Assembly: GCA_029573015.1 (NCBI GenBank)
Contig: JAKQHK010000101.1
Span: 1-43,487 of the forward strand
Source: a bacterium
GTDB taxonomy: Bacteria > Patescibacteriota > CG2-30-54-11
Length of the DNA stretch: 43,487 nt
Direction: 5' to 3'
Numbering within the stretch: the first letter of the stretch is position 1; each line of letters opens with the position of its first letter. The translations under genes were made by a program, and so were the position numbers. The notes below the pieces were generated by a model that was not told where the DNA came from, ran no database searches, and was given only the letters and a program-made list of their open reading frames with translations. Below are positions 1-31,835 of the stretch, one piece after another.

Positions 1-72
1 TTTTTTTCACATCAAAGGCGGGGTCGAAAAAATGAAAGGGTTTGAACCCTTGGAAAGTGGCGTCGTAGCAAC

Positions 73-94
73 AAAAAAGACGCCTTCAGCGTCT
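73..94 (-). terminator. Intrinsic terminator of tRNA-His
   Basis: On the minus strand a 6-bp stem (AGACGC / GCGTCT) with loop TGAAG is followed directly by a run of T. It lies 13 nt past the encoded CCA of tRNA-His, where a Rho-independent terminator for that gene is expected. Confidence 0.8.
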
Positions 95-106
95 CTTTGT
101 ACCATC

Positions 107-184
107 TGGGGTGACTGATGGGACTCGAACCCACGGCCTCCAGGGCCACAACCTGGCGCTCTAACCAACTGAGCTACAGTCACC
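107..184 (-). tRNA. tRNA-His (anticodon GTG)
   Basis: The minus strand folds as a full cloverleaf. The acceptor stem GTGACTG pairs with CAGTCAC, the anticodon arm is CCAGG-TTGTGGC-CCTGG with anticodon GTG, and the T-arm has a TTCGAGT loop. The G at 184 can be the G-1 that marks tRNA-His and faces discriminator C73 at 110. CCA is encoded at 109-107. The gene decodes CAC/CAU. The flanks hold a structured repeat and a collapsed copy of its own acceptor stem (311-377). Confidence 0.95.
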
Positions 185-310
185 ATATTGATTGAATCGA
201 ATAATAAATGTACAGGATGAACCTTGGCCAAAGGCCAACCGTCCTCTGGACGCAACTGCCCACCTCCGCTTATTCCTCTTTCGCTAACGCTTCAGAGGAC
301 TTCGGCTTCG

Positions 311-357
311 GTGGATAATTTCGTCATCCACTCTCCGCCTACGGCGGATCGCGGTGA
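311..357 (-). repeat. Structured repeat, family A, copy near tRNA-His
   Basis: On the minus strand this begins TCACCGCG, then a hairpin TCCGCC-GTA-GGCGGA (348-334), then a hairpin GTGGAT-GACGAAATT-ATCCAC (331-311). The same order and nearly the same loops occur in the three tandem copies at 27955-28180. There the second stem is GCGGAT/ATCCGC in copy 3, so the pair C-G has become T-A. A compensatory change of that kind points to selection on the fold, or to inheritance from a structured ancestor. Confidence 0.7.
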
Positions 358-377
358 CTCTCTAAAGCTACAGTCAC
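354..377 (-). pseudogene. Collapsed tRNA-His fragment (acceptor minihelix)
   Basis: The minus strand reads GTGACTGTAGCT, identical to the first 12 nt of tRNA-His, then TTAGAG, then AGTCAC, which matches the 3' acceptor strand. The result is an acceptor-stem hairpin without D, anticodon or T arms. It lies about 170 nt upstream of the real tRNA-His and runs directly into the family A repeat. It is a relic of a tRNA copy rather than a working tRNA. Confidence 0.65.
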
Positions 378-513
378 TACAAAACAGCTGAATAAAAATA
401 GCATAACTGACCAAAAAAGCAAACTCCTCTGTACTTCCCCGTTTTCGCAGAGCCGTCTCAAGGATAAATCTACGGGGTGGAACACGTCTCTCTTAATTTA
501 AGTGATTGTCACA

Positions 514-760
514 CTATATTTTCAATAATCTTTTGTGCATAAATGCTCGACCTGAACAAGTTTTTAAATATCGTTCAAAAGATAAGGCAAGCTCCTTGTC
601 ATCAAACGCAAAATAAGTTCTCAGTCTCCAAGGACGATATTTGCTAGTATAAACAGAATCGCCTTTATTATGTGCAGATACTCTCTGTAAAACATCCGTT
701 GTATAGCCAGTATAAACTTGCTCTGGATTCGCTATACTTTGAATGATATACCCAATACAT
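514..760 (-). pseudogene. GIY-YIG endonuclease, frameshifted
   Basis: Read on the minus strand, an ATG at 760 starts MYWVY. After a shift of frame by an apparent 2-nt loss in an AT repeat (near 745), the reading continues IIQSIANPEQVYTGYTTD, then LQRVSAHNKG, SKYRPWRLRTY, and FERYLKTCSGRAF up to TAG at 516-514. These are the hallmarks of small single-domain GIY-YIG proteins: the VY..VYTGYT pair of beta strands, the catalytic Arg in LQR, and the metal-binding Glu in FERYLK. No in-frame ATG opens the main frame, so it is probably dead, unless slippage or a non-ATG start rescues it. It lies between the tRNA-His and tRNA-Arg(TCT) relics. An intact relative lies at 30973. Confidence 0.75.
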
Positions 761-800
761 TTTCGAATCGGTTAATATAATGGCTTGAAGTTAATTTAAT

Positions 801-834
801 CTGCCCGCCTTCGTTATTCAACTTCGTCGGGCAG
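801..834 (-). repeat. GCGAAG-type hairpin repeat
   Basis: CTGCCCG at 801-807 pairs with CGGGCAG at 828-834. On the minus strand the loop contains CGAAG words before GGCGGG, like the hairpins inserted in the tRNA-Lys tails (31413-31450) and in family A copy 3 (28153-28177). This supports a dispersed hairpin family. No gene is visible in the rest of 761-958, which is rich in CCCCTTCGGGG-type stems. Confidence 0.5.
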
Positions 835-958
835 CCTTCGCTTCCTTTTTTTTGCAGTGGCGTGCCAGCCGTAGCTCGACAGAGCCCCATCGAATGACGG
901 GGCGAAAAAGAGCGAAGGCTGGTGCCCCCTTCGGGGATTACACCCCCTTCGGGGACTT

Positions 959-1028
959 CGCCCCCAGCAGGACTTCCTTCCCCTTCGTCGCGTTGCTCCT
1001 CAGTGTCAGGATAAACTTCTCGTCCTGC
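959..1028 (-). repeat. tRNA-Arg(TCT) tail copy 2 with expanded T-arm
   Basis: On the minus strand this runs from GCAGGACGAGAAG, through a long insert, to GGAAGTCCTGCTGGG. That is the T-stem and part of the 3' acceptor strand of tRNA-Arg(TCT), with the 7-nt T-loop replaced by about 45 nt. The 3' end has decayed (GGGGGCG in place of GGGCGCACCA). It shares the CGAGAAG...GAAG framing with copy 1 (1131-1208). Confidence 0.6.
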
Positions 1029-1093
1029 TTGATACTACTACCCCGTTTTCTGATGGACCGCTCCGAGGAAAACGGTCCCCTTTCTTTTGGCGT

Positions 1094-1120
1094 CACCTTT
1101 TCTTTCTTAAAGAAAAGGTG
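1094..1120. repeat. Perfect inverted repeat, 12-bp arms
   Basis: CACCTTTTCTTT at 1094-1105 and its exact complement AAAGAAAAGGTG at 1109-1120 are separated by CTT. It lies 10 nt from tRNA-Arg tail copy 1. There is no T-tract on either side, so it is not a typical terminator. It is more likely part of the repeat field. Confidence 0.7.
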
Positions 1121-1130
1121 AAGGTATCAC

Positions 1131-1208
1131 TGGTGCGCCCAGCAGGACTTCCTACACTCCCCTCCGCCTTACGGCTCCGGCTCGCTTCAGGACAGGCTTC
1201 TCGTCCTT
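1131..1208 (-). repeat. tRNA-Arg(TCT) tail copy 1 with expanded T-arm
   Basis: The first 19 nt on the plus strand (TGGTGCGCCCAGCAGGACT) are identical to 1253-1271 of the true gene. They cover the encoded CCA, the discriminator, the whole 3' acceptor strand and the T-stem 3' strand. Past that, the T-loop is replaced by about 55 nt that return to AGGACGAGAAG (minus strand), a T-stem-like partner. The copy lacks the 5' half of the tRNA. It lies directly downstream of the real gene. Confidence 0.7.
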
Positions 1209-1252
1209 TATCTCAACTCACGACTCACAACTAACGACTCACGACTATCTTG

Positions 1253-1330
1253 TGGTGCGCCCAGCAGGACTCGAACCTGCAACCTACTGCTTAGAAGGCA
1301 GTTGCTCTATCCAATTAAGCTATGAGCGCA
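1253..1330 (-). tRNA. tRNA-Arg (anticodon TCT)
   Basis: The minus strand gives acceptor TGCGCTC / GGGCGCA, the anticodon arm ACTGC-CTTCTAA-GCAGT with anticodon TCT, the T-arm GCAGG-TTCGAGT-CCTGC and an encoded CCA at 1255-1253. It reads AGA/AGG codons. Two degenerate copies of its 3' end follow downstream (1131-1208 and 959-1028), with a low-complexity spacer of 'actcacgact' words between the gene and the first copy. Confidence 0.95.
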
Positions 1331-1475
1331 GAAAGGCACGTATATATGGTAATGTGCTGCAACCTCTTACTCTTAAACTATACCATCAGCCGCCGAAAAA
1401 CCGCAACCGCTTTGGATTTACAGGCTACTCCGAGTTTGTTATGCTTTCACTATACAACTTAATAGTGGCGCAGCC

Positions 1476-2486
1476 ATGAGCCAGAATAAAAAGCAGCAGC
1501 ATGTCGATATCTGCCTGAAGCATCCGGTAGAGACCGGAACGAATGGTTTTGAAGCATACTGGTTTGAACATACCGCCCTACCGGAAATCGACCTGGCGGA
1601 AATAGCCACCAGTACGGAATTCCTTGGCAAAGCCATCAGCGCTCCGCTCATCATCAGCGCCATCACGGGCGGATCTGACAAGCTCGGAGCTATAAACCGC
1701 CATCTGGCACTGGCGGCACAACAACTCAATTTACCTCTCTGCGTCGGCTCGCTGAAAACCGCGCTCGAGCATCCGGAAACAGCCTCATCCTTTCAGGTAC
1801 GCCAGTATGCCCCCTCCATTCCCCTGCTCGCCAATCTCGGACTGGTGCAGCTCAATTACGGCTACGGACTGGACGAATGCCGAAGAGCAGTTGAGCTCAT
1901 CGAAGCGGATGCACTCGTGTTTCATCTCAACCCCCTCCAGGAAGCGATCAGCGCCGAGGGAGACACGAATTTCAAGCATCTGCTCTCCAAGCTGGAAAAA
2001 ATCATCCCGCAGCTTGGTGTACCGGTAATCATCAAGGAAGTCGGTTTCGGCATCTCCCGCCCGGTTGCCCAGAAACTTGCCAACATCGGGGTAAAATACA
2101 TCGACGTCAATGGCCGTGGCGGCACCAACTGGGCGCTCGTCGAAGGCATCCGAACGAACAATCCGATTAGCACAGCTTTTGCCACATGGGGCATTCCCAC
2201 GGCTACCTGCCTGCGTGACTGCCGGGATATTCACGGATTAACACTTATTGCCGGCGGTGGCATTCGTACCGGAGTCGATATCGCCAAATCCCTTGCGCTT
2301 GGCGCAGACTATGCCTCTCTGGCATTGCCTGTCCTCGCTGCTGCCGCTACCTCAGAGGCTGCGGTTGTCGAAGTTTTAACGGCACGCATCACCGAACTGC
2401 GCTATGCCATGTTCTCTACGGGCGAAAAAAACATCCACGCCCTGCAGCAGTCAAAAAAAATTCATCACCCGTCTGACCGGTTATGA
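1476..2486 (+). CDS. fni: Type 2 isopentenyl-diphosphate delta-isomerase
   Basis: 336 aa, the usual length of the FMN-dependent IDI-2 family. This cytosolic enzyme interconverts isopentenyl and dimethylallyl diphosphate, the precursors of undecaprenyl and other prenyl chains, with reduced FMN and a divalent metal. Seen in the sequence: SAPLIISAITGG (55-66, FMN site), HLNPLQE (150-156, the conserved His-x-Asn...Gln-Glu of the active site), VNGRGGTNW (211-219) and GGGIRTG (260-266, phosphate binding of a TIM barrel). The start ATG at 1476 has no clear Shine-Dalgarno. The stop overlaps the next start by 4 nt (ATGA), so the two genes are probably translationally coupled. uppP at the right end of the window uses the same lipid carrier pathway. 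No mevalonate or MEP gene is nearby. Confidence 0.92.
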   Translation: MSQNKKQQHVDICLKHPVETGTNGFEAYWFEHTALPEIDLAEIATSTEFLGKAISAPLIISAITGGSDKLGAINRHLALAAQQLNLPLCVGSLKTALEHPETASSFQVRQYAPSIPLLANLGLVQLNYGYGLDECRRAVELIEADALVFHLNPLQEAISAEGDTNFKHLLSKLEKIIPQLGVPVIIKEVGFGISRPVAQKLANIGVKYIDVNGRGGTNWALVEGIRTNNPISTAFATWGIPTATCLRDCRDIHGLTLIAGGGIRTGVDIAKSLALGADYASLALPVLAAAATSEAAVVEVLTARITELRYAMFSTGEKNIHALQQSKKIHHPSDRL

Positions 2487-3766
2487 CCGACATCCTGCCG
2501 CTTATCAAAATTTTTGTCATCCTCGCCGTTATCGGCTGGTTCATCAGATTGAAACTGAATATCGGTGTCAATCTCTTTCTTGCCAGCATCCCGCTGGCAT
2601 TCCTCTTCAATTTCGATGCTCGGGACTGGCTGCAGTCGGCTGCCGAAGCGCTCAGCTATATGCCCACCCTGACACTCGCTGCGGTCATCATCAGCATCTC
2701 TGTGTTCTGCCGCATCTGGAAAGCAACCGGCCGCATGGATGAACTAGTGCGTTCCTTCGCTGAACTCGTGAGCTCACGTCGCCTCAGCCTCATGTTCTTC
2801 CCGAGCATCGTCGGACTGCTTCCCATGCCGGGCGGAGCATTTTTCTCCGCGCCGCTCGTGCAGGCAGCTGCCCGGAAAACCAGTCTGACTGTCGATGACC
2901 AGGCAACGATCAACTACTGGTTCCGCCATGTCTGGGAATTCGTCTGGCCGCTCTATCCGGCCATGCTCTGGTTCAGCGAAACGTACAAAGTCCCTCTGGT
3001 CAGGATCATACCCTACAGCGGGGTGATCACCCTGAGCGCCATTATCGGAGGCAATGTCGTCCTGTTCCGCAGGCTGGGCTCCCTCGCTGATTTCAGTATC
3101 CATCTGAAAAAGCTGCCGGCTTTCCTGAAAACACTCTCGCCCCTGCTCATCCTCGCATTTATCGCCATAACCAGCGCAACAACGCTGCCGTTACTCCATA
3201 CCCTGCTGCCGGAATCCATCTATTCCTCACAAAACATCCCGCTTATGATCGGAGTTGTCTGCGCTACCCTGTTTCTCGTCATCCGCAACCATCTCTCTCT
3301 GAAAACCGTCAACCAGCACATCCGATCTGCTGACGTTCCCGGCCTCGCGGCTATTGTGCTCGGGGTGATGATTTTTAAAGAAATGTTAACCGACAGCGGC
3401 GCTGCCACGGATATTGGGGCAGCTTTTCAGGCAGTACACATCCCCGCCCCCCTCTTTGTCGTCGTTTTTCCCCTGTTCCTCGGTGCCCTGCTCAGTTACA
3501 CCATGAGTTCCCTGAGCATTGCCCTGCCGATTGTTATTGCGAGCGTCGGCATCAACCCGGCTGATATGCAGGCAATTCTTCCTTATTTTATCCTCGTATT
3601 TGCCTCCACCTTTTTCGGCGTCATGCTCACGCCCCTGCATGCCTGTTTTGCCCTCACCCGGGAATACTTCCAGGCAAGCTGGGGCGGTATGCTCAAGCGG
3701 GTTGCGCCGGCCTATCTATTTCCCATGACCGCTGCGATCATTATGTTCGTGCTCATGAAGCAATAA
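2483..3766 (+). CDS. DUF401 family integral membrane protein
   Basis: 427 aa and hydrophobic throughout, with about ten predicted membrane segments. It resembles the DUF401/TIGR00529 family, known mainly from archaea, Thermotogae and other anaerobes and distantly similar to ion-transporter-type permeases. The diagnostic stretch is LLPMPGGAFFSAPLV (112-126) followed by NYWFRHVWEFVWPLYP (144-159). The substrate of the family is unknown. It overlaps fni by ATGA, which suggests co-expression, but I see no biochemical link to isoprenoids. The gene ends just before a bidirectional terminator. Confidence 0.8.
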   Translation: MTDILPLIKIFVILAVIGWFIRLKLNIGVNLFLASIPLAFLFNFDARDWLQSAAEALSYMPTLTLAAVIISISVFCRIWKATGRMDELVRSFAELVSSRRLSLMFFPSIVGLLPMPGGAFFSAPLVQAAARKTSLTVDDQATINYWFRHVWEFVWPLYPAMLWFSETYKVPLVRIIPYSGVITLSAIIGGNVVLFRRLGSLADFSIHLKKLPAFLKTLSPLLILAFIAITSATTLPLLHTLLPESIYSSQNIPLMIGVVCATLFLVIRNHLSLKTVNQHIRSADVPGLAAIVLGVMIFKEMLTDSGAATDIGAAFQAVHIPAPLFVVVFPLFLGALLSYTMSSLSIALPIVIASVGINPADMQAILPYFILVFASTFFGVMLTPLHACFALTREYFQASWGGMLKRVAPAYLFPMTAAIIMFVLMKQ

Positions 3767-3770
3767 AAAA

Positions 3771-6476: not shown

Positions 6477-9400
6477 TTATGGCTCGATCGCCATCCAGTA
6501 GAACGAACTGTTGACATCGCCAGAACAATACGCAGTAAACTGGCTGGCAGTTACTCCACTTACCGTAACACGTGTGTTAACCGTATTGATCGGGGTAGCG
6601 GTTATAATCGGGGCTACACCAAAGGCAGCAGGATAATTAACAACAACAGTACCCGCTGCGCAGGTACCCATGCCCCTCTGCAAGTCAGCATCTGTCAGGA
6701 CGGTCGATCCACCAACTGTAGCGCTACCTGCGCTAAGAGCTCCAGCAGTTGTAATCGAACCAGCTGTTAGCGCTCCGCCAGTTGTAATACTTGCTGCGGA
6801 AAGCGCACCAGAAGTAGTAATGCTCCCTGCACTAAGTGCACCAGCAGTCGTAAAGCTTCCAGCAGATACTGCCCCGCTAGCTGTAAGTGATACTGCACCG
6901 ATTGACCCAGCACCAATGATATTGCCTCCCGTGATGGACAAACCACCATTAATAAAGCTCGCAGCAGTAAACGTACCACCAGCAGCAGTGATCGAGCCAT
7001 TAGACTGATCAATCCTAAGGACTTCTGCGCCAGCAGGAGCAACATTCGATCTCACAACAACATCACCAACAAAGGTGTTGTCATTGCCGGTTGAAGTCGT
7101 GCTGACATATCCGAACTGCCCAAGCCCTGCAGCCTGGATGCTGGAAACGCTAATCGTGGCGCTGGTGGCGCTGATATTGTTGCCTGCAATGGTCACATTG
7201 CCGTCATCATCTACAGAGAACACCGCATTGGCTGTACCGGAATTTTCAATCTCAAACCCACCGCCAGCCTGAACCGTAACCGGCTGACCGGTCGAATTAA
7301 CGATTTTCCCCTGGATATCAATGCTTCTTACGGTGGTATTACCGTCGACATTGAGTTCATTATTCAGATCAACATTTCCGCTTACCGTAGCTCCACCGCT
7401 GACCGTCATGCCATCTTCGATTGTTGCTCCGTCCTTGAGAGTTGTCGCTCCATTCACCGTCATGCCGCCGGTGATGGTAACACCAGCATTGAGTGTGGCA
7501 ATGTCATCATCAACCGTCACGCCGTCAAGAGTCGTTGCGCCGTTGACATCGAGGTTGCCGGTTACATTCAAGTTAGCAAGACCAAGAGCACCGGTCAGCG
7601 TCATGTTATCAGCAGTTATATCTGTGGCATCCACATCCCCATTCTCATCAACCGTGAAAACCGGCACAGCCGCAACGGAATTTACTTGAATCGCTACCGC
7701 ATCGTCAGCCGGTGTGAGGATGATATCCGTCGGATCGATGGAACCGCTCACATAAAGGTCGCCTATTACTGCGACATGTTTGCCTGTGCTGGCAGCATTT
7801 CCGAGCGGATCGACTGCAAACACAGTCGTCTCGGTTGTGTAATCCTGAACCGCGATACCCTGGTCATCCCGCAGATACAGCGGATTGGCTTCACCGGATC
7901 CGATAGAACCGGTTACATGCAGCCGGTCATTAACACTCACATAATTAGTGTCACTCGCTGTGCCGTTCATGATCGTTGCTGCGTAGACCGTGTTCCAACC
8001 GTTTGATCCGGATCCCAGATTCCTACTTCCGGTCGGAATAATGTTGGTGTTGATACGTCCGTTGACCGAAATCGTGTCAGCAGCAGCATCCCCGAGATCA
8101 ACCGTACCATTAAGCGTGGTGGCGCCGTCAACTGTCAAATTACCGGTATTATCCAGATCGCCATTATTCGTCGTCGGCTGTCCCATGGGATAGAATTGTA
8201 CATCGCCATAGAGATAGACGCCTTTGCCGGCACTACCGATGTCGGCATCACCGTCATGGTCAATCGCACTGTCAACATCACCACGAAAGAAATTACTGCC
8301 ATGTAATGTCATATCGCCGTAGAAATCCGATGCCGCTTGCACCGTCAGGACATCATTCAGTGTGGTCGCCCCATCAACGTCAAGCGTGCCGGTGATGTAG
8401 GCATCATCACAATAGGTGGATCCCCCCACCGCAACACTCAAGCAACCGATGAAGTCGTCAGCATAGATTTCATCCCATTCCAACCCTGCTGCACCAAGAT
8501 CAAATGTTTGGTGTGCGTTGGGAACAACATCGCTGTTGATGCGGGCATTGTAGACGACTATGTCGCCCAATGCATCACCAAGGAGAGTATTGCCCGAGAC
8601 AGATAGTGTATTACCGACACTTACGTTGTTGCTGATTGTTGCATTGTTACCAACGGTCAAATTGACATCGGCGGTAACATTGTTTAAAGCTCTGACATTA
8701 TTGTCCGCTCGTACATCTACCGCGGACCGGATGGTGTTGGCAGCATACACATTGCCATCCTCTGTGACCAGGAAAACATCAGCGGTATCAAGTGAATCAC
8801 GCACCTCGATCACATCCTGGCCATCCCCGATCGGCTGGAAATAAATCGCCGTGGGATCAATAGTACCGGTTACCTCCAGGTCGCCATTGATACTCACTTC
8901 ATAGTGAGACGCCATAGGGCCCGCCTCTGGTACGCCATTACGCATGGTGACAAAAGTATTGCCATCACTGCGGAAATCAAACCCATGGCTATCGCCAAAG
9001 ATGAGGGGGTCAGCATCTCCGGAACCGATGGAATCAGTGACGAGCAGACGGTCATCAACCATGACATATCCGCTGTTAGCAGCAGGATTGCTGTTGTAGA
9101 TGGCTCCCTGGATATCGATTGTATCAGTAGCGTCAGTCCCCAGCACCGTATCTTCGTAAACATTCAAATAGTCGGTGTTGATTGTCGTCGCCGTAATGGT
9201 ATCAACAAACAGATTAGCCCACTCACGTGCTGCAGAACCGAGATTATAAGCAAGCGTCGTGCTTGGCAGAACGTCCGCTCTTATATCCACAATACCTGTC
9301 TGGGGCACGAGGAAAATATTTCCTCCGCCGGCTGTGGTACGAATGGTGAGTGCCCCGCCAACTTTCTGAATTGCATTATTAAGCACTCCTGTCTGGTTGC

Positions 9401-12047
9401 CCGGCATTCCTACCTGCACACTGTTCGAATAATACCCACTGTTCCACCGATCCATGCCAGTACCTAAATCCCAGCTACCTCCCTGTGGAACAACATGACC
9501 GTAGGAATACGTGTAATTGCTACTCGGCCATAATTCAACATCATATCCACCCATCGTACCAAGTATAATATCCATACCGATACTGCCAACAGCTCCGGGA
9601 ACGATACCACTGATTGTCCCGCTCCCATTAATATCACCAACTGCAACCCCCTGACTGAAAAATCCAGCCATCCAGCGATTATTCGGATCACCAAGTAAAT
9701 ACATATCGTCAACGCCAGGGAATAGGTTATCATCAATAATTACGTCGCCGATAGAATTATATATTCTATCCTGAGCATCTATGTCATCATAATAATGTTC
9801 TGGACTGCTGTGGAATGACTCTCCGTAAACATATAAGTCATTGTGCACAATAGTGTCACCAGCCGCATCAACCTCAAACCAATCTGTACCGCTGCCATAA
9901 TGCTCTACCAGGAAGCCATCATTGTCAGCCACGATGAGCTGCTGCCCGGGAGCGGTTGATCCGCTACCGATAGAGACCGGAACGAGCAGGCGGTCGTCAA
10001 CGAGCACGTGGCCGTTATTTGCCGTACCAAGATTAACAATCCGATCCTGCGCATCGATATCATCATAATAGTGCTCTGGTCCATAGTGTTCTGACTCAGC
10101 ATACACGGTTAGATACTCAGTATAGACATTACCGGTATACACATTGTTCCATCTGCTCCATGGCTTGCCAAGATCATAGGTTAAGTCCATGGTGGGAATA
10201 ATATCCGCGGCTGATCGTACTTTTTCATTGCCGGGCCGCAATACGACATTATGCTCTGGTGCCAGGACGATATTGTAATTTCCGCCGCCGTCTGTCACCA
10301 GTCGCATATCCTGCCCTACAGTCCTCAAACCATTGTCCCGAAGGACAGTTTGCAGTCCGGCTACTCCTACCCGAACGGTATCAGAGAAAAATCCGTCACT
10401 CCAGCGGTAGTTCGGCAAGCCGATGGAATACATGCCATTGGACTCAGGCACGAGGTCAGTGGCAAATCTGCCGTTGGCATAGAGCAGATCGCTCGTGTCA
10501 TCCCCGAGATAGACATATCCGTTCAGATAGGTATCACCGTCAACCGTTATGTCGCCTAGATTATAGTAATTCCCATAATTAGTGGTAACAACATCGGGAA
10601 AGAAATCAATAGCTCCCCAAAGTGCCACATCTTTGCCATAGTCACCAATATCTGCATCACCGTAGTGATCAATATAGCTGTATTCATTGCCATAAAACAA
10701 TGCTGTAAAAGTATCCGTCCCAATCAGATTGATGCTGTCATAGTAATACTCAGGCCCGTAGTGGTAGGACTCGCCATCAACTGCGAGATTACCATCGATC
10801 CAGACATCCCCGGTTACCTCCAGGTTGTCATCCACAACCACAATGTCAGTTATGGAATTAGTAATGGTTGTCTGGGCATCCAGACCGCCATGTACGATTG
10901 CATCCGCGGCGACCTCCAGGCTGTCATCCACGACGACCATACCGGTGTCTGAATTAACGATTGTACCCTGCGCATCAATGATGTCGTAAAAATGCTCCGG
11001 ACCGTTATGGAATGACTCGGTATTCACGGTCAGAGTGTCCACAGTCAGGTCAGTAGCAATGATGGTATCAACGTAAATATTAGCCCATTCATTACCGAGC
11101 GCACCAAGGTCATAGGTGCTGTCTGCGGTTGGCTGGATATTTGCTCCAAACAGATTGCCATTCTCATCCACGAGGAATGAGCTGGCGCCGCTCGTGTCGC
11201 GCACGTCAATAGCCGTATCGCCGTCAGCTACTGGTTCCAGTAACATGTCGGTAGCATTAACGCCTGCGGTTACATACAGCCCGCCGATCACTCCGACCGT
11301 CTCTCCATTGGGTCCGATACCGGTTTCGTCGACGTAGAGCGTGCCATCAGCCGCGAGCGTGCCGGTGGTGGTATCGTCTACGGTCAGATCAGTATAGGGA
11401 TTAATCTTATCGCCGGTGACCGAACCGTCCTGAATGGCAAAGGTGCCGACGGCATCCTCGGACAGCTGGTCACTCGTGATGGCATGCGGGGTGATGTACT
11501 CGGTTCCGACTGCCCAGATACGCATATCATGCCAGTTGACATCCCCTTCCTTGATCTGCAACGTGCCGATTGATTCAGGACCTGCACCGACAGTATTGGT
11601 AACGTAGGTTGTCGGATTCGTGACCACGGTTGTACCAGTGCCGGTTGTACCGGTGCCAGTGGTACCAGTGGTGTTACCCACCTCGCTGACCCGGGATTCC
11701 AGTTCATCCACCCTGTCGGTCAGGTCAGTAATGGTTGCCGAGCTTCCTGCATCCACGACGAGATTGGCACCCTCGGCTGTATCAGAAACACCGAGAACCT
11801 GCCCCCCCATCTTCTTACCTTCTTCACCGGGATACAGAACCGCCCCGAATACGGTATCATTTCCGCTAAACTTGATCCCTACTGCCAGTTCATCATCCAG
11901 CTGGTCAACCCCGACTGCCTGCGCTTCGATCTGGTCTCCCTTGATCGTCTGCGAACCGCTGTAGGCGACATAGCCGAGCACGCCTGACAGGATCGCGAGA
12001 ACCCCAAAGACTGCAACTGCGACCTTCAGTCCTTGTTGGTCTTTCAT
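6477..12047 (-). CDS. Giant surface fibre-like repeat protein
   Basis: 1856 aa from the ATG at 12047. An upstream in-frame ATG at 12128 exists, but GGGAGA is 7 nt before 12047, and the signal-anchor helix (LKVAVAVFGVLAILSGVLGYVAY) follows at once. The rest is a low-Cys, Asp/Gly/Asn/Thr-rich, beta-forming chain. A Thr/Gly linker (about 125-142) leads to many imperfect modules of the type 'YDLG....W..IY.DTI.A....V' and 'VDGNLTVDGATTLN'. There are five or more copies of a 'YHYGPEYYYDSI'-like segment (e.g. FHSSPEHYYDDIDAQDRI). This architecture recalls phage tail-fibre and trimeric adhesin stalks. Near the C-terminus come short 'GALSAGSITT' repeats, then an end domain (GTVVVNYPAAFGVAPIITA ... SFYWMAIEP) like the C-terminal lectin-type domains of tail fibres. 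It is probably membrane-anchored by its N-terminus and exposed for attachment. No sorting motif or enzyme domain is seen. Confidence 0.85.
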   Translation of the reverse strand: MKDQQGLKVAVAVFGVLAILSGVLGYVAYSGSQTIKGDQIEAQAVGVDQLDDELAVGIKFSGNDTVFGAVLYPGEEGKKMGGQVLGVSDTAEGANLVVDAGSSATITDLTDRVDELESRVSEVGNTTGTTGTGTTGTGTTVVTNPTTYVTNTVGAGPESIGTLQIKEGDVNWHDMRIWAVGTEYITPHAITSDQLSEDAVGTFAIQDGSVTGDKINPYTDLTVDDTTTGTLAADGTLYVDETGIGPNGETVGVIGGLYVTAGVNATDMLLEPVADGDTAIDVRDTSGASSFLVDENGNLFGANIQPTADSTYDLGALGNEWANIYVDTIIATDLTVDTLTVNTESFHNGPEHFYDIIDAQGTIVNSDTGMVVVDDSLEVAADAIVHGGLDAQTTITNSITDIVVVDDNLEVTGDVWIDGNLAVDGESYHYGPEYYYDSINLIGTDTFTALFYGNEYSYIDHYGDADIGDYGKDVALWGAIDFFPDVVTTNYGNYYNLGDITVDGDTYLNGYVYLGDDTSDLLYANGRFATDLVPESNGMYSIGLPNYRWSDGFFSDTVRVGVAGLQTVLRDNGLRTVGQDMRLVTDGGGNYNIVLAPEHNVVLRPGNEKVRSAADIIPTMDLTYDLGKPWSRWNNVYTGNVYTEYLTVYAESEHYGPEHYYDDIDAQDRIVNLGTANNGHVLVDDRLLVPVSIGSGSTAPGQQLIVADNDGFLVEHYGSGTDWFEVDAAGDTIVHNDLYVYGESFHSSPEHYYDDIDAQDRIYNSIGDVIIDDNLFPGVDDMYLLGDPNNRWMAGFFSQGVAVGDINGSGTISGIVPGAVGSIGMDIILGTMGGYDVELWPSSNYTYSYGHVVPQGGSWDLGTGMDRWNSGYYSNSVQVGMPGNQTGVLNNAIQKVGGALTIRTTAGGGNIFLVPQTGIVDIRADVLPSTTLAYNLGSAAREWANLFVDTITATTINTDYLNVYEDTVLGTDATDTIDIQGAIYNSNPAANSGYVMVDDRLLVTDSIGSGDADPLIFGDSHGFDFRSDGNTFVTMRNGVPEAGPMASHYEVSINGDLEVTGTIDPTAIYFQPIGDGQDVIEVRDSLDTADVFLVTEDGNVYAANTIRSAVDVRADNNVRALNNVTADVNLTVGNNATISNNVSVGNTLSVSGNTLLGDALGDIVVYNARINSDVVPNAHQTFDLGAAGLEWDEIYADDFIGCLSVAVGGSTYCDDAYITGTLDVDGATTLNDVLTVQAASDFYGDMTLHGSNFFRGDVDSAIDHDGDADIGSAGKGVYLYGDVQFYPMGQPTTNNGDLDNTGNLTVDGATTLNGTVDLGDAAADTISVNGRINTNIIPTGSRNLGSGSNGWNTVYAATIMNGTASDTNYVSVNDRLHVTGSIGSGEANPLYLRDDQGIAVQDYTTETTVFAVDPLGNAASTGKHVAVIGDLYVSGSIDPTDIILTPADDAVAIQVNSVAAVPVFTVDENGDVDATDITADNMTLTGALGLANLNVTGNLDVNGATTLDGVTVDDDIATLNAGVTITGGMTVNGATTLKDGATIEDGMTVSGGATVSGNVDLNNELNVDGNTTVRSIDIQGKIVNSTGQPVTVQAGGGFEIENSGTANAVFSVDDDGNVTIAGNNISATSATISVSSIQAAGLGQFGYVSTTSTGNDNTFVGDVVVRSNVAPAGAEVLRIDQSNGSITAAGGTFTAASFINGGLSITGGNIIGAGSIGAVSLTASGAVSAGSFTTAGALSAGSITTSGALSAASITTGGALTAGSITTAGALSAGSATVGGSTVLTDADLQRGMGTCAAGTVVVNYPAAFGVAPIITATPINTVNTRVTVSGVTASQFTAYCSGDVNSSFYWMAIEP
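6720..6897 (-). repeat. Tandem repeats coding for GALSAGSITT-like units
   Basis: About six imperfect 30-nt units in the 3' part of the giant gene encode ten-residue repeats of the form (S/G)GALSAGSITT. They give a low-complexity collar between the modular stalk and the C-terminal domain. The unit number could vary between strains by slippage. Confidence 0.7.
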
Positions 12048-12257
12048 AGACATTCTCCCTAAAAAAGGTAGATAAGGTATTTCGGATTTTATTTTATTTT
12101 GTACGAATATATATAGAAGGCGTAACACGCCATAAAAAAGCTCTCGACCTGATCATCAGTGAGCTCGTTTATTTCCAAACTGTATCTAAATAACTTCGTC
12201 AACCTGGAAATACCCAGCGAGAGTATTCTACAGGCAAAAAAAAGGCAATGTCAAGCA

Positions 12258-27954: not shown

Positions 27955-28180
27955 TTAGTGAATCACCGCGAAGCGCCGCAGGCGGTGAGCGGATGATGAA
28001 CTTATCCTCGGAACGAAGAGAAGGTGGGTTAGTGAATCACCGCGAAGCGCCACAGGCGATGAGCGGATGATGAACTTATCCTCGGAACGAAGTTAAGACG
28101 GGTTAGTGAATTACCGCGAAGCGCCACAGGCGATGAGCGGATGATGAACTTATCCGCCGCAGCGAAGCGAAGGCGGACAA
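27955..28180 (+). repeat. Three tandem copies of structured repeat family A, period 74
   Basis: Units start TTAGTG at 27955, 28029 and 28103. Each holds TCACCGCG or TTACCGCG, a small hairpin CGCC-(G/A)CA-GGCG, then GCGGAT-GATGAACTT-ATCC(T/G)C, then a GAACGAAG segment. In copy 3 the tail forms TCCGCC/GGCGGA. The array fills the gap 27852-28237 between the protease gene and tRNA-Arg(TCG). I see no gene in this gap. A single distant copy lies at tRNA-His (311-357). Confidence 0.85.
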
Positions 28181-28237: not shown

Positions 28238-28314
28238 GCCCCCTTAGCTCAACTGGATAGAGTACCTGGCTTCGAACCAGATGGTTGGGGGTTCAAATCC
28301 TCCAGGGGGCACCA
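28238..28314 (+). tRNA. tRNA-Arg (anticodon TCG)
   Basis: Acceptor GCCCCCT / AGGGGGC, anticodon arm CTGG-CTTCGAA-CCAG with anticodon TCG, T-arm GGGGG-TTCAAAT-CCTCC, discriminator A and encoded CCA at 28312-28314. It reads CGA. Copies of its 3' end follow at 28344-28487, and the family A array precedes it. Confidence 0.95.
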
Positions 28315-28343: not shown

Positions 28344-28487
28344 AACCCGTCAGATCCCGTGAGCGCAGCGAAGCGGGATTCAAATCCTCCAGGGGGCACC
28401 AATGATAACATTTTCGAATAAGACCAACTCAACCCGTCAGATCCCGTGAACAGCGTGAAGCGGGATTCAAATCCTCCAGTAGACCAC
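28344..28487 (+). repeat. Two tRNA-Arg(TCG) tail copies, period 87
   Basis: Copy 1 (28344-28401) reads AACCCGTCAG, a hairpin ATCCCG...CGGGAT, then TTCAAATCCTCC and AGGGGGCACCA, which is the T-loop, T-stem 3' strand, acceptor 3' strand and CCA of the tRNA just upstream. Copy 2 (28431-28487) repeats the same order, with the acceptor decayed to AGTAGACCACC. The anticodon and 5' halves are missing. Confidence 0.8.
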
Positions 28488-28527
28488 CTGTGTTCCTATT
28501 TTTTCACTTAATCCGCAAGCATAATCC

Positions 28528-28824
28528 ATGGCAGCCATCAGACGTATCGTACTTGACACCCTCAAACCGCACGAACCCGGCATCATCGAACTGGCGGAAA
28601 AAATCAGCGACCAGCCCGGCGTCGACGCGGTCAATATCAGCATTTATGAAATGGACCGCAAAGTTGAAAATGCCAAGATCACCATCGAGGGGAATAATAT
28701 CCAAGTTGATGAAGTATTCAAGATTGTAAAAGATTATGGTGCCAGTATCCACTCCATCGATGAAGTCGTCGCCGGCAAAAAAATCATCGATGATTCCGAA
28801 ACTCCCCAGGACAGCTATAACTGA
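28528..28824 (+). CDS. DUF211 family protein
   Basis: 98 aa, a ferredoxin-like alpha/beta fold typical of DUF211, a family best known in archaea. Marks: IRRIVLDTLKPHEPGIIELA (4-23), GVDAVNISIYEMDRK, NAKITIEGNNIQVDEV and YGASIHSIDEVVAGK. Its function is unknown; structures of archaeal members suggest a small-ligand or metal-binding oligomer. The stop overlaps the next start (TGATG), linking it to the CCC1-like transporter, a pairing also seen in archaeal genomes. Confidence 0.88.
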   Translation: MAAIRRIVLDTLKPHEPGIIELAEKISDQPGVDAVNISIYEMDRKVENAKITIEGNNIQVDEVFKIVKDYGASIHSIDEVVAGKKIIDDSETPQDSYN

Positions 28825-29408
28825 TGTTGCATCGACTCCGTACCGCCCTTACTGATCTTGATCGTATCACTGACGTTATCAGCATTGCCCGCCGCAATTT
28901 CGTCATGAATGCCTTTGATGGCGTTCTCACGATGACCGGAATCCTGGCTGGTTCCTACTTCGTCGGTATCGACGACCCCAAAATCGTGCTAGGAACCGGT
29001 TTCAGCACGGCGATAGCCATGGGCATATCCGGCATGTGGGGCGCCTTCCTGACTGAGCGTTCGGAGCGCCGACATGACATCAAGCAACTCGAACGGCACA
29101 CCCTTGCTGACCTGTCCGACTCTCATCTCGTTACCGCCTCGCATCAGGCTACCATAATCATAACCCTTGTGGGTCTTGCCCCGCTACTGGCAGCCCTGTC
29201 TGTGTTATCACCGTTTCTGTTCTCCTTCCTGTTCCCATCCATAACCATGATGTATTTCAGCTCACTGGCTCTCATCATACTTCTGCTGTTTAGCTTGGGG
29301 ACGTTCCTCGGAACCATTTCAAAAGAAAACATCCTGCTATCAGGCCTCCGTCTCTTGGCTGCTGGCATCATCTGTATCGGCATCCTGCTCATGATAGAAA
29401 CGTTATAG
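28824..29408 (+). CDS. VIT1/CCC1-like (Fe/Mn) membrane transporter
   Basis: 194 aa with about four or five hydrophobic helices. The first helix region, RRNFVMNAFDGVLTMTGILA, carries the typical 'NAFDGvlt..G...G' motif of the VIT1/CCC1 family. It is followed by GFSTAIAMGISGMWGAFLTE with the Glu that ends the second helix, and a short charged cytoplasmic loop (ERSERRHDIKQLER). Family members move Fe2+ or Mn2+ out of the cytosol. It lacks the long metal-binding loop of plant VIT1. Translation is coupled to DUF211. Iron handling would suit an organism with many FeS clusters, but that link is inference. Confidence 0.85.
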   Translation: MLHRLRTALTDLDRITDVISIARRNFVMNAFDGVLTMTGILAGSYFVGIDDPKIVLGTGFSTAIAMGISGMWGAFLTERSERRHDIKQLERHTLADLSDSHLVTASHQATIIITLVGLAPLLAALSVLSPFLFSFLFPSITMMYFSSLALIILLLFSLGTFLGTISKENILLSGLRLLAAGIICIGILLMIETL

Positions 29409-29444
29409 CGTTGACGCGTTATCAAATCTTATTCTTCCAACAAA

Positions 29445-29480
29445 AAAAGAGCAGACTCGCAATATCGAGGCTGCTCTTTT
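29445..29480. terminator. Bidirectional terminator between CCC1-like and secreted protein genes
   Basis: AAAAGAGCAG and CTGCTCTTTT form a 10-bp stem, with inner CTCG/CGAG pairing. A and T runs on both sides serve the convergent genes. Confidence 0.85.
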
Positions 29481-29505
29481 CATATGCTGAAATTTTGGGT
29501 ATGTC

Positions 29506-30690
29506 TTAAAAAACCGGCTTGGCGATAAAGATCAATTCGTGCGCGTAGTTACCCGAAGGCTGCAAATTATTCACCTCGAGCTGCAAGGTGATATTAGTAT
29601 AATCCTGGCCCTCGATATCACTTTGCGTTGCTTCATGATGATACAGAATTTCTTCTGATGTTGTGGTGAATCCGGCATATTTGGTAGCAGTAGCGAACCG
29701 ATTGGGACCATCCCCAACTGTATTCAATGTCGTATCGCTGGTGGTATAACCGAGAAACCCTGTATCAACCCCCAGCGTTGTTCCAGTCGGTGATGTCCAG
29801 TCTACCGGAGCATCATTAGTCCCAACCGCGACATTCTTGATTGGGTCAATATCAATTGTCGGGTCCACCGCATGCAGCATATTGGTATCCTGTTTGATGT
29901 AAACGGTGAAACCGTTCTGCGCATCAGTATTGACTTTGGCACGCATCACCGCGGTCTTGGCCACTCCCGGAGTGATTTCCCGCCATTCGATGAGGTTGGG
30001 GGCAATCACACCCCCATCCGGAGGGGTAATTCCGGATATCTCAAAGGTCATATGCGGTTTTTGTCCCGCATACTCCTCAACATGCTCAATCGTAGCAACG
30101 AGTAATTCAATCGTGTCGATTATCACACTGCTTCCGTCTGCAGAAGTTATATCCACAGACCATACATCTCCGGAGCCAATTGGATTTACTTTCGCCGGAT
30201 TGACGATCTGCTCTGCGCCCGTCACCCCGTACGTGGCTATAGTACCGATCTCTATGACAATCGCAGAATCTGCAGCCACAGTATCCGTATCGTTGTTTGT
30301 CAGAACTAGCGATCCGCTCGTGCCGCTCGTCACCGCCACGCCCCAGGCGCTTCCTGCTCCGCTGCCGGCTGAGGCAGCCAGAGGCACATCTGATCCGTTC
30401 AGCGAAAGATCACAATCTTCGTAATCCATAGCAACCGGGATCGTAAAATATGTCGCTTCCGGTTCGATCGTGATCGTCCCACCAGCTGGTATCGCCTGTT
30501 TGTTTGTCAGCGTGATTATCCAGTCGGATCCCGTAGCTGGTTTGGATTCAAGTAGTTCAACGCTCGCATCATAAAACTGCATTTGTACCGCATGCGCACC
30601 CCGGCTCGAGAGCAACACGACAGCAAAACAACCCATAACAGCCAAAGCAGATATTAGTGCCGTATGCAAACGGTATCGCGAATTCATCAT
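29506..30690 (-). CDS. Secreted beta-rich surface protein, unknown
   Basis: 394 aa. The signal peptide at 1-34 ends SRGAHA before VQMQFYD. The mature chain is Thr/Ser/Asp/Gly-rich and beta-forming, with no Cys beyond one. Segments include WIITLTNKQAIPAGGTITIE, repeated 'GVAVTSGTSGSLVLTN'-like stretches and a C-terminal LEVNNLQPSGNYAHELIFIA ending KPVF. The 'LQpSGNY...I.yIa.P.F' ending occurs in many uncharacterised secreted CPR proteins. AGGA lies 8 nt before the first ATG. It is likely exposed on the cell surface or released; function unknown. Confidence 0.8.
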   Translation of the reverse strand: MMNSRYRLHTALISALAVMGCFAVVLLSSRGAHAVQMQFYDASVELLESKPATGSDWIITLTNKQAIPAGGTITIEPEATYFTIPVAMDYEDCDLSLNGSDVPLAASAGSGAGSAWGVAVTSGTSGSLVLTNNDTDTVAADSAIVIEIGTIATYGVTGAEQIVNPAKVNPIGSGDVWSVDITSADGSSVIIDTIELLVATIEHVEEYAGQKPHMTFEISGITPPDGGVIAPNLIEWREITPGVAKTAVMRAKVNTDAQNGFTVYIKQDTNMLHAVDPTIDIDPIKNVAVGTNDAPVDWTSPTGTTLGVDTGFLGYTTSDTTLNTVGDGPNRFATATKYAGFTTTSEEILYHHEATQSDIEGQDYTNITLQLEVNNLQPSGNYAHELIFIAKPVF

Positions 30691-30826
30691 GCGTTTATCC
30701 TGTATATACCTGTATAATCAGCCTTTCCCATAGTACCGCAAGTCAGAAGCGGTTGTCCAGCGCGCAAATACCCTTGCAGAGCCAGGACGGGATTGGTAAA
30801 ATACTGTTTGTCGCATAAATAGGCGC

Positions 30827-30960
30827 GGGTCGCTAGCTTCAGATCATTCGATCTGATAAACAATCGGTAGTTAGTTGCCTCTTAAGCAATTGGTTCAGGG
30901 TTTCCGGTCATCCGACCGGACCGGGTCGTATGACCCGGCGAGTTATGTTTAATAACCCAC
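30827..30960 (+). pseudogene. tRNA-Lys-like relic with inserted hairpins
   Basis: It starts GGGTCGCTAGCT as in tRNA-Lys. It holds an insert with hairpin AGATC-ATTC-GATCT in the D-arm, then about 30 nt identical to the real gene (30873-30902, anticodon arm CTT included, through the start of the T-arm). Two hairpins follow in place of the T-loop (CCGGTC-ATCC-GACCGG and CCGGGTC-GTAT-GACCCGG), then GCGA and finally ACCCAC at the end. It is a full-length tRNA-Lys copy stretched by palindromic inserts. It lies 418 nt before the true gene. Confidence 0.8.
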
Positions 30961-30972
30961 TATGCTGTCTCA

Positions 30973-31254
30973 ATGTATTACGTCTATTTTCTACTCCTCG
31001 CCAATGGCGACATATACAAAGGTTCGTGTTCTGATGTGCAACAACGTCTGATTGATCATCAAAACGGTCGTGTCAAATCCACCCAGCATTATCTGCCATT
31101 TCATCTTATCGGATACGAATGTTATTATTTAAAAAGTGATGCGCTGAGAAGAGAAAAATTCCTGAAAACAACAGAGGGGCGTCGTTTACTCAAACAGCAA
31201 TATAAGGATATAATTAATCATCTGACCGAAAATATTTCCCAAACGGGTCGCTAG
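30973..31254 (+). CDS. Small GIY-YIG endonuclease domain protein
   Basis: 93 aa, one complete GIY-YIG domain. MYYVYFLLLANGDIYKGSC gives the paired strands (the second motif is YKG). VQQRLIDHQNGRVKST has the catalytic Arg and the usual H-N-G turn. LRREKFLKTTEGRRLLKQQY carries the metal-binding Glu. Such proteins (UvrC N-domain/YhbQ type) are nucleases; the role of these stand-alone forms is not settled. It starts 13 nt after the tRNA-Lys relic, and its TAG stop lies inside the true tRNA-Lys gene (10-nt overlap), so its last codons are tRNA sequence. A frameshifted relative lies beside tRNA-His (514-760). No Shine-Dalgarno is visible. Confidence 0.85.
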   Translation: MYYVYFLLLANGDIYKGSCSDVQQRLIDHQNGRVKSTQHYLPFHLIGYECYYLKSDALRREKFLKTTEGRRLLKQQYKDIINHLTENISQTGR

Positions 31255-31319
31255 CTCAATGGTAGAGCAGTTGCCTCTTAAGCAATTGGTTCAGGGTTCG
31301 AGCCCCTGGCGACCCACCA
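31245..31319 (+). tRNA. tRNA-Lys (anticodon CTT)
   Basis: Acceptor GGGTCGC / GCGACCC, anticodon arm GTTGC-CTCTTAA-GCAAT with anticodon CTT, T-arm CAGGG-TTCGAGC-CCCTG, discriminator A and encoded CCA at 31317-31319. It reads AAG. The first 10 nt are also the end of the GIY-YIG reading frame. Two long tail copies follow downstream. Confidence 0.95.
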
Positions 31320-31343
31320 TATAGTCATTTTTTCCTGTTTGAC

Positions 31344-31507
31344 ATCAGGGGCGAGAAGTAAGATCCCCTGCAATCCCGAAGCTCTGGGATGGAAGGGGAA
31401 GCCCCTGGTTTACCCGCCGAACCCTGAACGAAGTGAAGGGGAAGGCGGGCGACCCACCACAGATCTTAACGAATCGGCCAACGGACGATGAGTTTAGAAA
31501 TGTGGTG
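31344..31507 (+). repeat. tRNA-Lys tail copy 1 with nested hairpins
   Basis: T-stem-like hairpin CAGGGG-CGAGAAG...CCCCTG, a second hairpin ATCCC...GGGAT, then GAAGCCCCTGG (T-stem 3' strand). A third hairpin CCCGCC...GGCGGG is inserted before the acceptor strand GCGACCCACCA. The part from 31401 to 31507 recurs in copy 2 with one visible mismatch. Confidence 0.85.
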
Positions 31508-31567
31508 TACCGGATGATGTCAGATCAGCATCCGGTACAGAGCAAGAAAACGTTAGTATGCAAAGCG

Positions 31568-31592
31568 TTTCCACAGGATGGAAAATTTTTTT
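31568..31592 (+). terminator. Terminator within the tRNA-Lys tail repeats
   Basis: TTTCCA-CAGGA-TGGAAA followed by A and seven T. It lies between the two tail copies and could end transcripts of tRNA-Lys that have read through copy 1. Confidence 0.65.
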
Positions 31593-31779
31593 ATCAGGGG
31601 CGAGACGTACAGCCCTGAGTATAGAGAAGAACAAGGTCCGCTGTAGTCAGCCAAAGGCTGACGGAAGCGGAAGCCCCTGGTTTACCCGCCGAACCCTGAA
31701 CGAAGTGAAGGGGAAGGCGGGCGACCCACCACAGATCTTAACGAATCGGCCAACGGACGATGAGTTTAGAGATGTGGTG
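31593..31779 (+). repeat. tRNA-Lys tail copy 2 with nested hairpins
   Basis: Begins ATCAGGGGCGAGA like copy 1, but the middle differs (hairpin GTCAGCC-AAA-GGCTGAC). From 31673 it repeats 31401-31507 at an offset of 272 nt with one visible mismatch over about 107 nt, including GCGACCCACCA. Short ORFs across both copies are repeat translations, not genes. No gene is supported between 31320 and 32041. Confidence 0.85.
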
Positions 31780-31835
31780 AATTGATTGACGCACCAGCGA
31801 CAACTAAAACTATATAAAACATCGGTTGTAAGCAG

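Follow-up and report, generated by a model that had tools for sequence, protein, structure and literature searches.

The window, by which we mean the whole 43,487-nucleotide stretch of DNA that was analysed, carries four tRNA genes. ARAGORN and Rfam both find exactly these four, with the identities given in the original prediction. The genes and the features around them are listed below, "remnant" denoting a partial copy of the neighbouring tRNA.

107-183, minus strand: intact tRNA-His(GTG) (ARAGORN, Rfam)
224-251, minus: type B double hairpin, GTCCAGAGGAC + TTGGCCTTTGGCCAA, between the His remnant and tRNA-His
313-329, minus: element 3′ end GGATGACGAAATTATCC, after the His 5′ remnant
366-377, minus: 5′ remnant of tRNA-His (nt 1-12, GTGACTGTAGCT), upstream of the intact gene
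553-750, minus: GIY-YIG domain between tRNA-Arg(TCT) and tRNA-His
920-974, minus: 3′ remnant 2 of tRNA-Arg(TCT), consisting of AGTCCTGCTGGG (963-974, 12 nt), inserted hairpins and GGCACCA (920-926)
1016-1026, minus: complementary arm of Arg(TCT) remnant 2
1131-1149, minus: 3′ remnant 1 of tRNA-Arg(TCT), nt 59-77, T loop to CCA, 19 nt
1197-1207, minus: complementary T-stem arm ...AGGACGAGAAG of Arg(TCT) remnant 1
1253-1329, minus: intact tRNA-Arg(TCT) (ARAGORN, Rfam)
27987-28155, plus strand: three tandem copies of the GAGCGGATGATGAACTTATCC element, upstream of tRNA-Arg(TCG)
28238-28314, plus: intact tRNA-Arg(TCG) (ARAGORN, Rfam)
28352-28401, plus: hairpin AGATCCCG..CGGGATTC (28352-28381) running into 3′ remnant 1 of tRNA-Arg(TCG) (28375-28401)
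28439-28479, plus: the same hairpin again (28439-28468) with 3′ remnant 2 of tRNA-Arg(TCG) (28462-28479), which stops before CCA
30827-30938, plus: 5′ remnant of tRNA-Lys, made up of nt 1-12 (30827-30838), a D-loop hairpin (30839-30856), nt 25-54 (30873-30902) and, in the T loop, a type A double hairpin (30903-30920 + 30921-30938)
30973-31254, plus: intact GIY-YIG ORF of 93 aa (PF01541, E=1.5e-10)
31245-31319, plus: intact tRNA-Lys(CTT) (ARAGORN, Rfam)
31346-31459, plus: 3′ remnant 1 of tRNA-Lys, with T-stem 5′ arm, hairpin loop, AGCCCCTGG (31400-31408), a second hairpin and GGCGACCCACCA (31448-31459)
31466-31498, plus: element TTAACGAATCG..CGATGAGTTTAGA, immediately 3′ of the CCA of Lys remnant 1; second copy at 31738-31770
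31595-31731, plus: 3′ remnant 2 of tRNA-Lys, same plan as remnant 1, with AGCCCCTGG at 31672-31680 and GGCGACCCACCA at 31720-31731

Pieces of the gene's own tRNA were found beside all four genes (His, Arg(TCT), Arg(TCG) and Lys), as had been predicted. Most copies had been described as keeping the T-stem, acceptor and CCA. The His locus falls outside this wording because only the 12-nt 5′ fragment and the double hairpin are present there. 5′ fragments occur as well, always upstream. The inserted hairpins were borne out at Lys, where the folds are significant (z of -3.4, -3.7 and -5.3), but not in the RNA fold of the Arg(TCG) copy (z -0.16); the folds of two remnants elsewhere (L110 and L043) were not significant either. 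The candidate agent, a GIY-YIG nuclease ORF of about 80 aa, had been overlooked. A GIY-YIG reading frame adjoins three of the four window tRNAs. At Lys it is intact, and nt 8-10 of the tRNA double as its stop codon TAG. The one between Arg(TCT) and His is apparently a broken ORF, since the ATG at the usual place sits in a different frame.

The frequency of such fragments was determined across the window's genome (G000). At 18 of 31 tRNA genes a fragment of the gene's own tRNA (score of at least 12) lies no more than 400 nt away, against a background of 0.2-0.7% per side for fragments of tRNAs for other amino acids (882 pairs), which excludes chance genome-wide. The original prediction was to fail if other tRNA genes lacked copies or if random tRNAs matched equally well; genome-wide, neither was observed (18/31 against less than 1%). 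Three genomes of one family gave 18/31, 6/33 and 10/45 tRNAs with own fragments, with a background of 0.2-0.9% per side for other tRNAs. In the most affected genome, scars occur at more than half of the tRNA genes. Own fragments share the strand of the intact tRNA, and reverse-strand ones were found at only 1 of the 31 genes in G000. The fragments are also polar: all 20 that contain nt 1 lie upstream of the intact tRNA, and of the 29 extending to the 3′ end of the tRNA, 28 are downstream. The intact tRNA is therefore enclosed by a broken copy of itself. The break points concentrate in the D, anticodon and T loops.

Polarity, break points and content led us to reject several conventional explanations. 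If prophages or genomic islands had used an ordinary integrase to enter tRNA 3′ ends and had then been lost time after time, CCA-ending 3′ fragments would remain; these are the classic mark of integrase sites, and many copies fit that part. Such a history accounts neither for the 5′ fragments upstream nor for the breaks in the anticodon and D loops or the hairpins. The recurrent linked gene is a GIY-YIG ORF, and the 60-260 nt between tRNA and 3′ remnant in G000 leave no room for an integrase gene; we regard this reading as extremely improbable. It is very unlikely that tRNA genes were simply duplicated in tandem and then decayed, with palindromes inserting at random. Local duplication does occur, as the three tandem remnants at Asn and the two at Ala indicate, but decay predicts full-length pseudogenes on both sides, whereas the 5′ pieces observed are confined to the upstream side and the 3′ pieces almost entirely to the downstream side, and both the linked nuclease and the lineage-specific hairpins would be left unexplained. 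A group I intron was rejected on the same grounds; the four tRNAs are all that Rfam detects in the window.

Orthologous loci in relatives are empty where others are occupied. The distance from tRNA-Asn to the next gene is 345 nt in the occupied and 20 nt in the empty state; for tRNA-Thr the values are 547 nt and 18 nt. Together with the genome-wide enrichment and the fragment polarity, these loci support the view that each locus copies its own tRNA. They also support the proposal that the copies are scars of repeated insertion, but the site is the D, anticodon and T loops and not the tRNA 3′ end.

The Lys ORF belongs to the GIY-YIG superfamily. PF01541 covers residues 1-70 of 93, and no separate DNA-binding region of the I-TevI/Seg type was found beyond the GIY-YIG domain; the score against the NCBIfam homing model is far under the cut-off. 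Members of the family are typically 78-93 aa long, and Y5, Y16, G18, R27, H31 and E63 are invariant across seven ORFs. The closest solved sequences, UPF0213 and SLX1 (PDB 1zg2, 1ywl and 6seh; E of 8e-16, 3e-13 and 2e-6), have the GIY-YIG domain in common with it. SLX1 is a structure-specific nuclease, and to our knowledge neither UPF0213 nor SLX1 has been described as a tRNA-linked mobile element. Relatives were collected with a single protein query and the best 90 were examined. Among these, 62 have a tRNA gene no more than 400 nt away, all 62 are co-directional with it, and 30 of the 62 have a fragment of the same tRNA on the opposite side of the ORF (controls 1.9%). Overlap of ORF and tRNA by 10 or 15 nt is frequent. 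An independent query with the window's tRNA-Lys ORF gave 21/30 near a tRNA, 21/21 on the same strand and 12 with fragments. The tRNA type is conserved on the ORF tree (32 changes against 42.5 when shuffled, 0/1000), which suggests that the ORF lineages are target-specific. No phage record matched in the search for phage relatives. A relative is present in 185 of 380 sampled genomes of the phylum, or about half.

Double hairpins are located in the loops of the remnants. They occur in 21 of 25 gaps between remnant and ORF (expected 2.1), and the 50 kb around ORFs hold 54 type B hairpins, compared with 8 in 168 kb of more distant sequence. The hairpin type (A or B) tracks the ORF lineage, with 1 change on the tree versus 6.5 when shuffled (0/1000). 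An interpretation as generic dispersed repeats was tested by pattern searches, in which three of four families were bound to tRNA loci and one was not (3/8). Five of the six genome copies of the family ending in GGATGACGAAATTATCC lie upstream of tRNA genes, and all three copies of AGATCCCG..CGGGATTC (3/3) and, with a stricter pattern, both copies of TTAACGAATCG..CGATGAGTTTAGA (2/2) lie at tRNA remnants.

A partner protein is believed to mobilise REP hairpins. By analogy, the double hairpin itself might be the mobile unit here, moved by a structure-specific GIY-YIG protein with a preference for tRNA loops, and the tRNA pieces might be by-products of repair. The single change of hairpin type along the ORF lineages argues for this, as do the presence of SLX1 among the nearest solved relatives and of ORF relatives between inverted repeats in 23S rRNA (locus L111), RNase P RNA and an atp operon. 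Hairpins in G000 also occur outside tRNA loci; for the CGTCCARAGGACG hairpin, 5 of 8 copies lie outside the tRNA loci examined, which counts against tRNA-targeting cassettes. On the other hand, hairpin transposition alone leaves unexplained why a complete tRNA always stands between polar 5′ and 3′ pieces and why each ORF lineage stays with a single type of tRNA. The mark of REP/RAYT and IS200/IS605 hairpin transposons is an HUH transposase (TnpA/RAYT), and the linked ORF here is GIY-YIG. We consider this account possible but doubtful. It is unlikely that the hairpin-bearing remnants are functional tRNA-like leaders, that is, selected RNA structures controlling processing or translation of the ORF/tRNA transcript. 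Remnant arms do remain closed as stems around hairpins in the RNA fold (T arm at L007), the co-direction of all tRNA-linked ORFs and their overlaps with the tRNA would fit, and phage T4 homing endonuclease genes carry regulatory RNA hairpins (PMC2988022). Yet many remnants in G000 have no ORF, double hairpins are also found on the downstream side of the ORF (L159, L169), and the relatives' loci are empty.

It seems likely, with a probability of roughly 0.7, that minimal mobile cassettes, a family directed at tRNA genes and encoding a putative nuclease, are present in the window both as scars and as living copies. They look like widespread, apparently undescribed selfish DNA aimed at tRNA genes in this small-genome bacterium and many relatives. 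The observations that support it are the nested polar layout, the linkage and co-direction of ORF and tRNA, the empty sites, the target-specific lineages, the tie between hairpin and lineage and one pair with a swapped tRNA. A cassette would comprise the short GIY-YIG ORF (about 78-93 aa), a lineage-specific double hairpin and a complete tRNA copy, and would enter a tRNA gene at a loop (D arm, anticodon loop or T loop). Its complete tRNA would secure survival of the cell, and of the native gene there would remain a 5′ piece on the upstream side, a 3′ piece on the downstream side, or both, each carrying hairpins where the loop was broken. The predicted nuclease might cut the tRNA stem-loop or the hairpin, and repair would copy the cassette in, as in homing. 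The hairpin may block re-cutting or be the nuclease's own site, the ORF would be read from the tRNA promoter, and most copies in the window would be ORF-less derivatives.

Several observations count against such cassettes. The ORF differs from known homing endonucleases in lacking any DNA-binding domain besides GIY-YIG; the frame between Arg(TCT) and His stands between two different tRNAs and not between a remnant and its own tRNA; and 28 of the best 90 relatives (about 30%) lie away from any tRNA, 4 of these 28 near tmRNA. Self-immunity is unexplained, since the intact tRNA retains the presumed target, and a swapped tRNA was seen at a single locus pair only. More tentatively, and at less than even odds, the family could represent mobile elements of a new class. 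Each would couple a minimal GIY-YIG nuclease, structure-specific and lacking a separate DNA-binding domain, to a double hairpin of its own, and the two would jointly colonise loops of structured RNA genes (tRNA, tmRNA flanks, 23S rRNA, RNase P RNA) and swap in a complete tRNA, the target being set by stem-loop structure and not by a long sequence site.

That no such system had been described proved nearly right: close analogues exist in fungal mitochondria, phage T4 and CPR rRNA genes, and none at bacterial tRNA genes in the literature found (PMC3630166, PMC2988022, PMC11270868). On the best reading, the cassettes would behave as mobile ORFs do in fungal mitochondria and as phage genes do in intronless homing, and ORF-less remnants would occur alongside. 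As in intronless homing and the gene hybrids of mobile ORFs, an ORF was found beside its target together with a displaced native gene end and a replacement copy. In fungal mitochondria, hybrids of this kind affect atp6 of Allomyces and atp6, atp9, cox2 and nad3 of Glomus; an endonuclease ORF in an essential gene brings a replacement end and displaces the native one (PMC3630166). Here, in contrast, the targets are bacterial tRNA genes, the whole tRNA is supplied, the ORF has only about 80 aa and hairpins occupy the broken loops. The foreign origin of the replacement has been shown in fungi (PMC3630166), whereas in the window's family it is only suggested, by one pair of sister species (G248 and G380). 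At their Ser locus the 5′ remnant is identical (36/36) and the ORF agrees at 215/240 nt, but the intact tRNA matches at 72/88 positions, and the hairpin-split 3′ half is present in G248 only. A common cassette with different intact tRNAs at this single locus pair suggests that the replacement may be foreign. At the Pro locus of G095, the foreign-tRNA comparison did not discriminate (53/60 for both).

Phage T4 likewise has a free-standing GIY-YIG gene between tRNA genes (SegB, tRNA region), and its free-standing GIY-YIG enzymes are active mobile nucleases in intronless homing; split tRNAs and double hairpins, both present here, were not found described in the available parts of these sources (PMC2988022, PMC13096335). 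Adjacent small hairpins resemble the double-hairpin or repetitive hairpin elements in non-coding DNA and rRNA genes of Allomyces and sponge mitochondria (PMC2800124), but those described here lie in the loops of split tRNAs, and their type goes with a nuclease lineage. If the cassette reading is true, a selfish element attacks and replaces tRNA genes, the puzzling tRNA fragments of these bacteria are explained, and a route exists for tRNA gene swaps between lineages. The pairing of nuclease and hairpin would offer a testable rule for site choice by an 80-residue nuclease. In CPR bacteria, the same broad group, GIY-YIG proteins occur in rRNA gene insertions that are not group I or II introns and lie mostly at the tops or bases of stem-loops; the survey judged these proteins to be outside homing (PMC11270868). 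It covered rRNA only and does not contain the word tRNA, whereas our tRNA data suggest target-specific lineages. The window loci are tRNA genes, while a related ORF lies inside 23S rRNA at L111. Elsewhere, a group I intron was observed near one GIY-YIG relative (locus L160).

The splitting of tRNA genes is real, genome-wide and common to a phylum. The original prediction had named four tRNA genes in the window, tRNA-His, tRNA-Arg(TCT), tRNA-Arg(TCG) and tRNA-Lys(CTT), as flanked by pieces of themselves, and both the genes and own pieces near each of them (4/4) were confirmed. To call an own fragment, ungapped matches with a score of at least 12 and at most 400 nt from the tRNA were accepted, with other tRNAs masked. 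The window's genome (G000) is a draft of 1.35 Mb in 140 contigs, 69% complete, with the window as contig C81. All its 31 tRNAs were tested, and same-strand own fragments were found at 18/31, bearing out the expectation of a genome-wide pattern. In 882 control pairings, each with a tRNA for a different amino acid, the rate was 0.7% downstream and 0.2% upstream, and the reverse strand gave one own match for the 31 tRNAs. Two further genera of the same family carry own fragments at 6/33 and 10/45 tRNAs, and nine other genomes of the phylum at 5/112.

The fragments are polar, with 5′ pieces upstream and 3′ pieces downstream. Upstream, 20/33 fragments include tRNA nt 1; downstream, 28/36 extend to the tRNA 3′ end, which is reached by only one upstream fragment, part of a full-length hairpin-bearing copy. 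Inner ends concentrate after nt 12 and in the D, anticodon and T loops. The intact tRNA is thereby nested within a split copy, as at tRNA-Lys in the window:

Upstream remnant: nt 1-12, hairpin, nt 25-54, double hairpin
Following the upstream remnant: 93-aa GIY-YIG ORF, intact tRNA, two hairpin-split 3′ remnants

The stop codon TAG of this ORF is nt 8-10 of the tRNA. The whole plan is seen at tRNA-Gly of another genome (G002): nt 1-32, hairpin, nt 32-46, GIY-YIG ORF, intact tRNA, nt 20-32, hairpin, nt 28-75. At tRNA-Ile(TAT) of G009 (locus L146), the intact tRNA sits within a copy broken in the anticodon loop, and neither hairpin nor ORF is present.

Comparison of occupied and empty sites, anchored on conserved neighbour genes, identifies the extra DNA as an insertion. 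Between tRNA-Asn and the gene that follows it there are 345 nt in G000, with three remnants, versus 20 nt in G001. Occupied and empty spacings are 547 versus 18 nt for tRNA-Thr(GGT), 363 versus 113 nt for tRNA-Ser(GCT) and, upstream, 194 versus 45 nt for tRNA-Arg(ACG). The own-fragment search found no remnant on the compared side of the empty alleles.

GIY-YIG ORFs are linked to tRNA genes and co-directed with them. Four of the eight GIY-YIG matches in G000 adjoin tRNA genes. One frame in the window looks broken from its sequence:

553-750 (-): GIY-YIG frame between tRNA-Arg(TCT) and tRNA-His, no in-frame ATG, GTG or TTG before the domain

Scanning genome contigs with the G000 tRNA-Pro ORF returned a relative adjoining the same tRNA-Pro in a Microgenomates bacterium (60% identity) and, in a Phycisphaerales genome, one that follows a tRNA-Pro that is split. 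Matches occur in 185/380 genomes of the phylum. Among the best 90 matches, 62 lie at most 400 nt from a tRNA (55 of them at most 150 nt), where about 5% would be expected of random genes by our own estimate from ~45 tRNAs per 0.95 Mb. At these loci the ORF is on the tRNA's strand in 62/62 cases, an own-tRNA fragment lies across it at 30 (control pairings, 122/6471), and it overlaps the tRNA gene at 18, so that its stop codon falls inside the tRNA. Including the window Lys ORF, the overlap is mostly exactly 10 or 15 nt. The Lys ORF as an independent query, with some loci common to the first set, placed 21/30 matches near a tRNA, 21/21 on the same strand and 12 with own fragments, and returned a cassette at tRNA-Lys(CTT) whose remnant spans nt 1-57.

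ORF lineages are associated with tRNA type and hairpin type. On the ORF tree, amino-acid type changes 32 times versus 42.5 ± 1.6 in shuffled data (0/1000), and the Ser and Asn clades each cover several families; the tree has 87 columns and is poorly resolved, and the shuffle test therefore outweighs single branches. Hairpins could be sought in 25 remnant-to-ORF gaps of sufficient length: perfect ones with 6 bp or more are present in 21 (2.1 expected), and nine gaps contain two (0.1 expected). Type A double hairpins pair stem-TC-ATNC-GA-stem with stem-TC-GNAT-GA-stem, and type B consists of two adjoining 15-mers NNNNCC-3-GGNNNN; the paired loops are, judged by eye, roughly complementary. The window Lys cassette is type A and the G000 Pro cassette type B. 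A tree of 111 ORFs needs a single change of hairpin type (6.5 expected; 0/1000). Near ORFs, type B is ~20-fold denser than elsewhere, with 54 in 50 kb against 8 in 168 kb. Two tRNA-free G000 loci, L293 and L299, carry type B double hairpins near position 1500, flanked by AACCCG-like repeats; hairpins may therefore also move on their own.

As a mechanism, we propose that the GIY-YIG protein would cut a tRNA loop or hairpin and that break repair would copy the cassette in. The ORF would be expressed from the tRNA promoter, and cassettes would decay to ORF-less remnants. Known homing endonucleases have an additional DNA-binding region that is missing from the ORF, whose resemblance is to UPF0213 and the structure-specific SLX1; cutting is therefore likely guided by structure. 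The sister species G248 and G380 share a locus, a tRNA-Ser 5′ remnant (36/36 identical) and the ORF (215/240 nt). The intact tRNA-Ser of G380 equals the remnant over nt 1-36. In G248, 6/36 of these positions differ (72/88 identical overall); the nearest tRNA in the sample, at 88%, is a tRNA-Ser from a different family, and a 3′ half split by a hairpin comes after the intact gene. In fungal mobile ORFs, native ends are displaced and the replacement is foreign (PMC3630166); sequence comparison at this one locus suggests a similar logic, and the corresponding comparison at tRNA-Pro of G095 gave equal values (53/60 for both).

These fungal ORFs match the cassettes partially, as do mitochondrial hairpin elements (PMC2800124), GIY-YIG-bearing insertion sequences of CPR rRNA genes (PMC11270868) and intronless homing and SegB (PMC2988022, PMC13096335). 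The CPR rRNA survey makes no mention of tRNA and placed GIY-YIG outside homing (PMC11270868). Our open-licence literature search found no paper on bacterial tRNA-splitting cassettes, and an earlier description is possible. The cassettes are probably a novel form of the mobility seen in free-standing endonucleases, and possibly a new class.

ORF relatives also occur at other genes. In a Lysobacterales MAG record (L111:801-1110), one lies in 23S rRNA between inverted-repeat arms CCGACGATCACTCGCTTA and TAAGCGAGTGATCGTCGG, a position like that of an intervening sequence. A frameshifted GIY-YIG frame at the RNase P RNA 5′ end (L114:2270-2590) lies between inverted repeats AGCACTCAAGAAGCGC and GCGCTTCTTGAGTGCT, and another relative lies between inverted repeats in an atp operon. 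In Kerfeldbacteria (L112:2440-2800), the ORF precedes rmlB, with a duplicated rmlB 5′ end upstream and the intact start recoded. Four of the 90 best matches, at L206, L209, L225 and L226, lie ~110-155 nt downstream of tmRNA (same strand, 4/4). At L160:1501-2090, a group I intron match has a GIY-YIG ORF immediately upstream. One further feature of the window was recorded:

6477-12128 (-): 1883-aa ORF, its match to a phage endosialidase domain weak and below threshold (E 1.2e-4)
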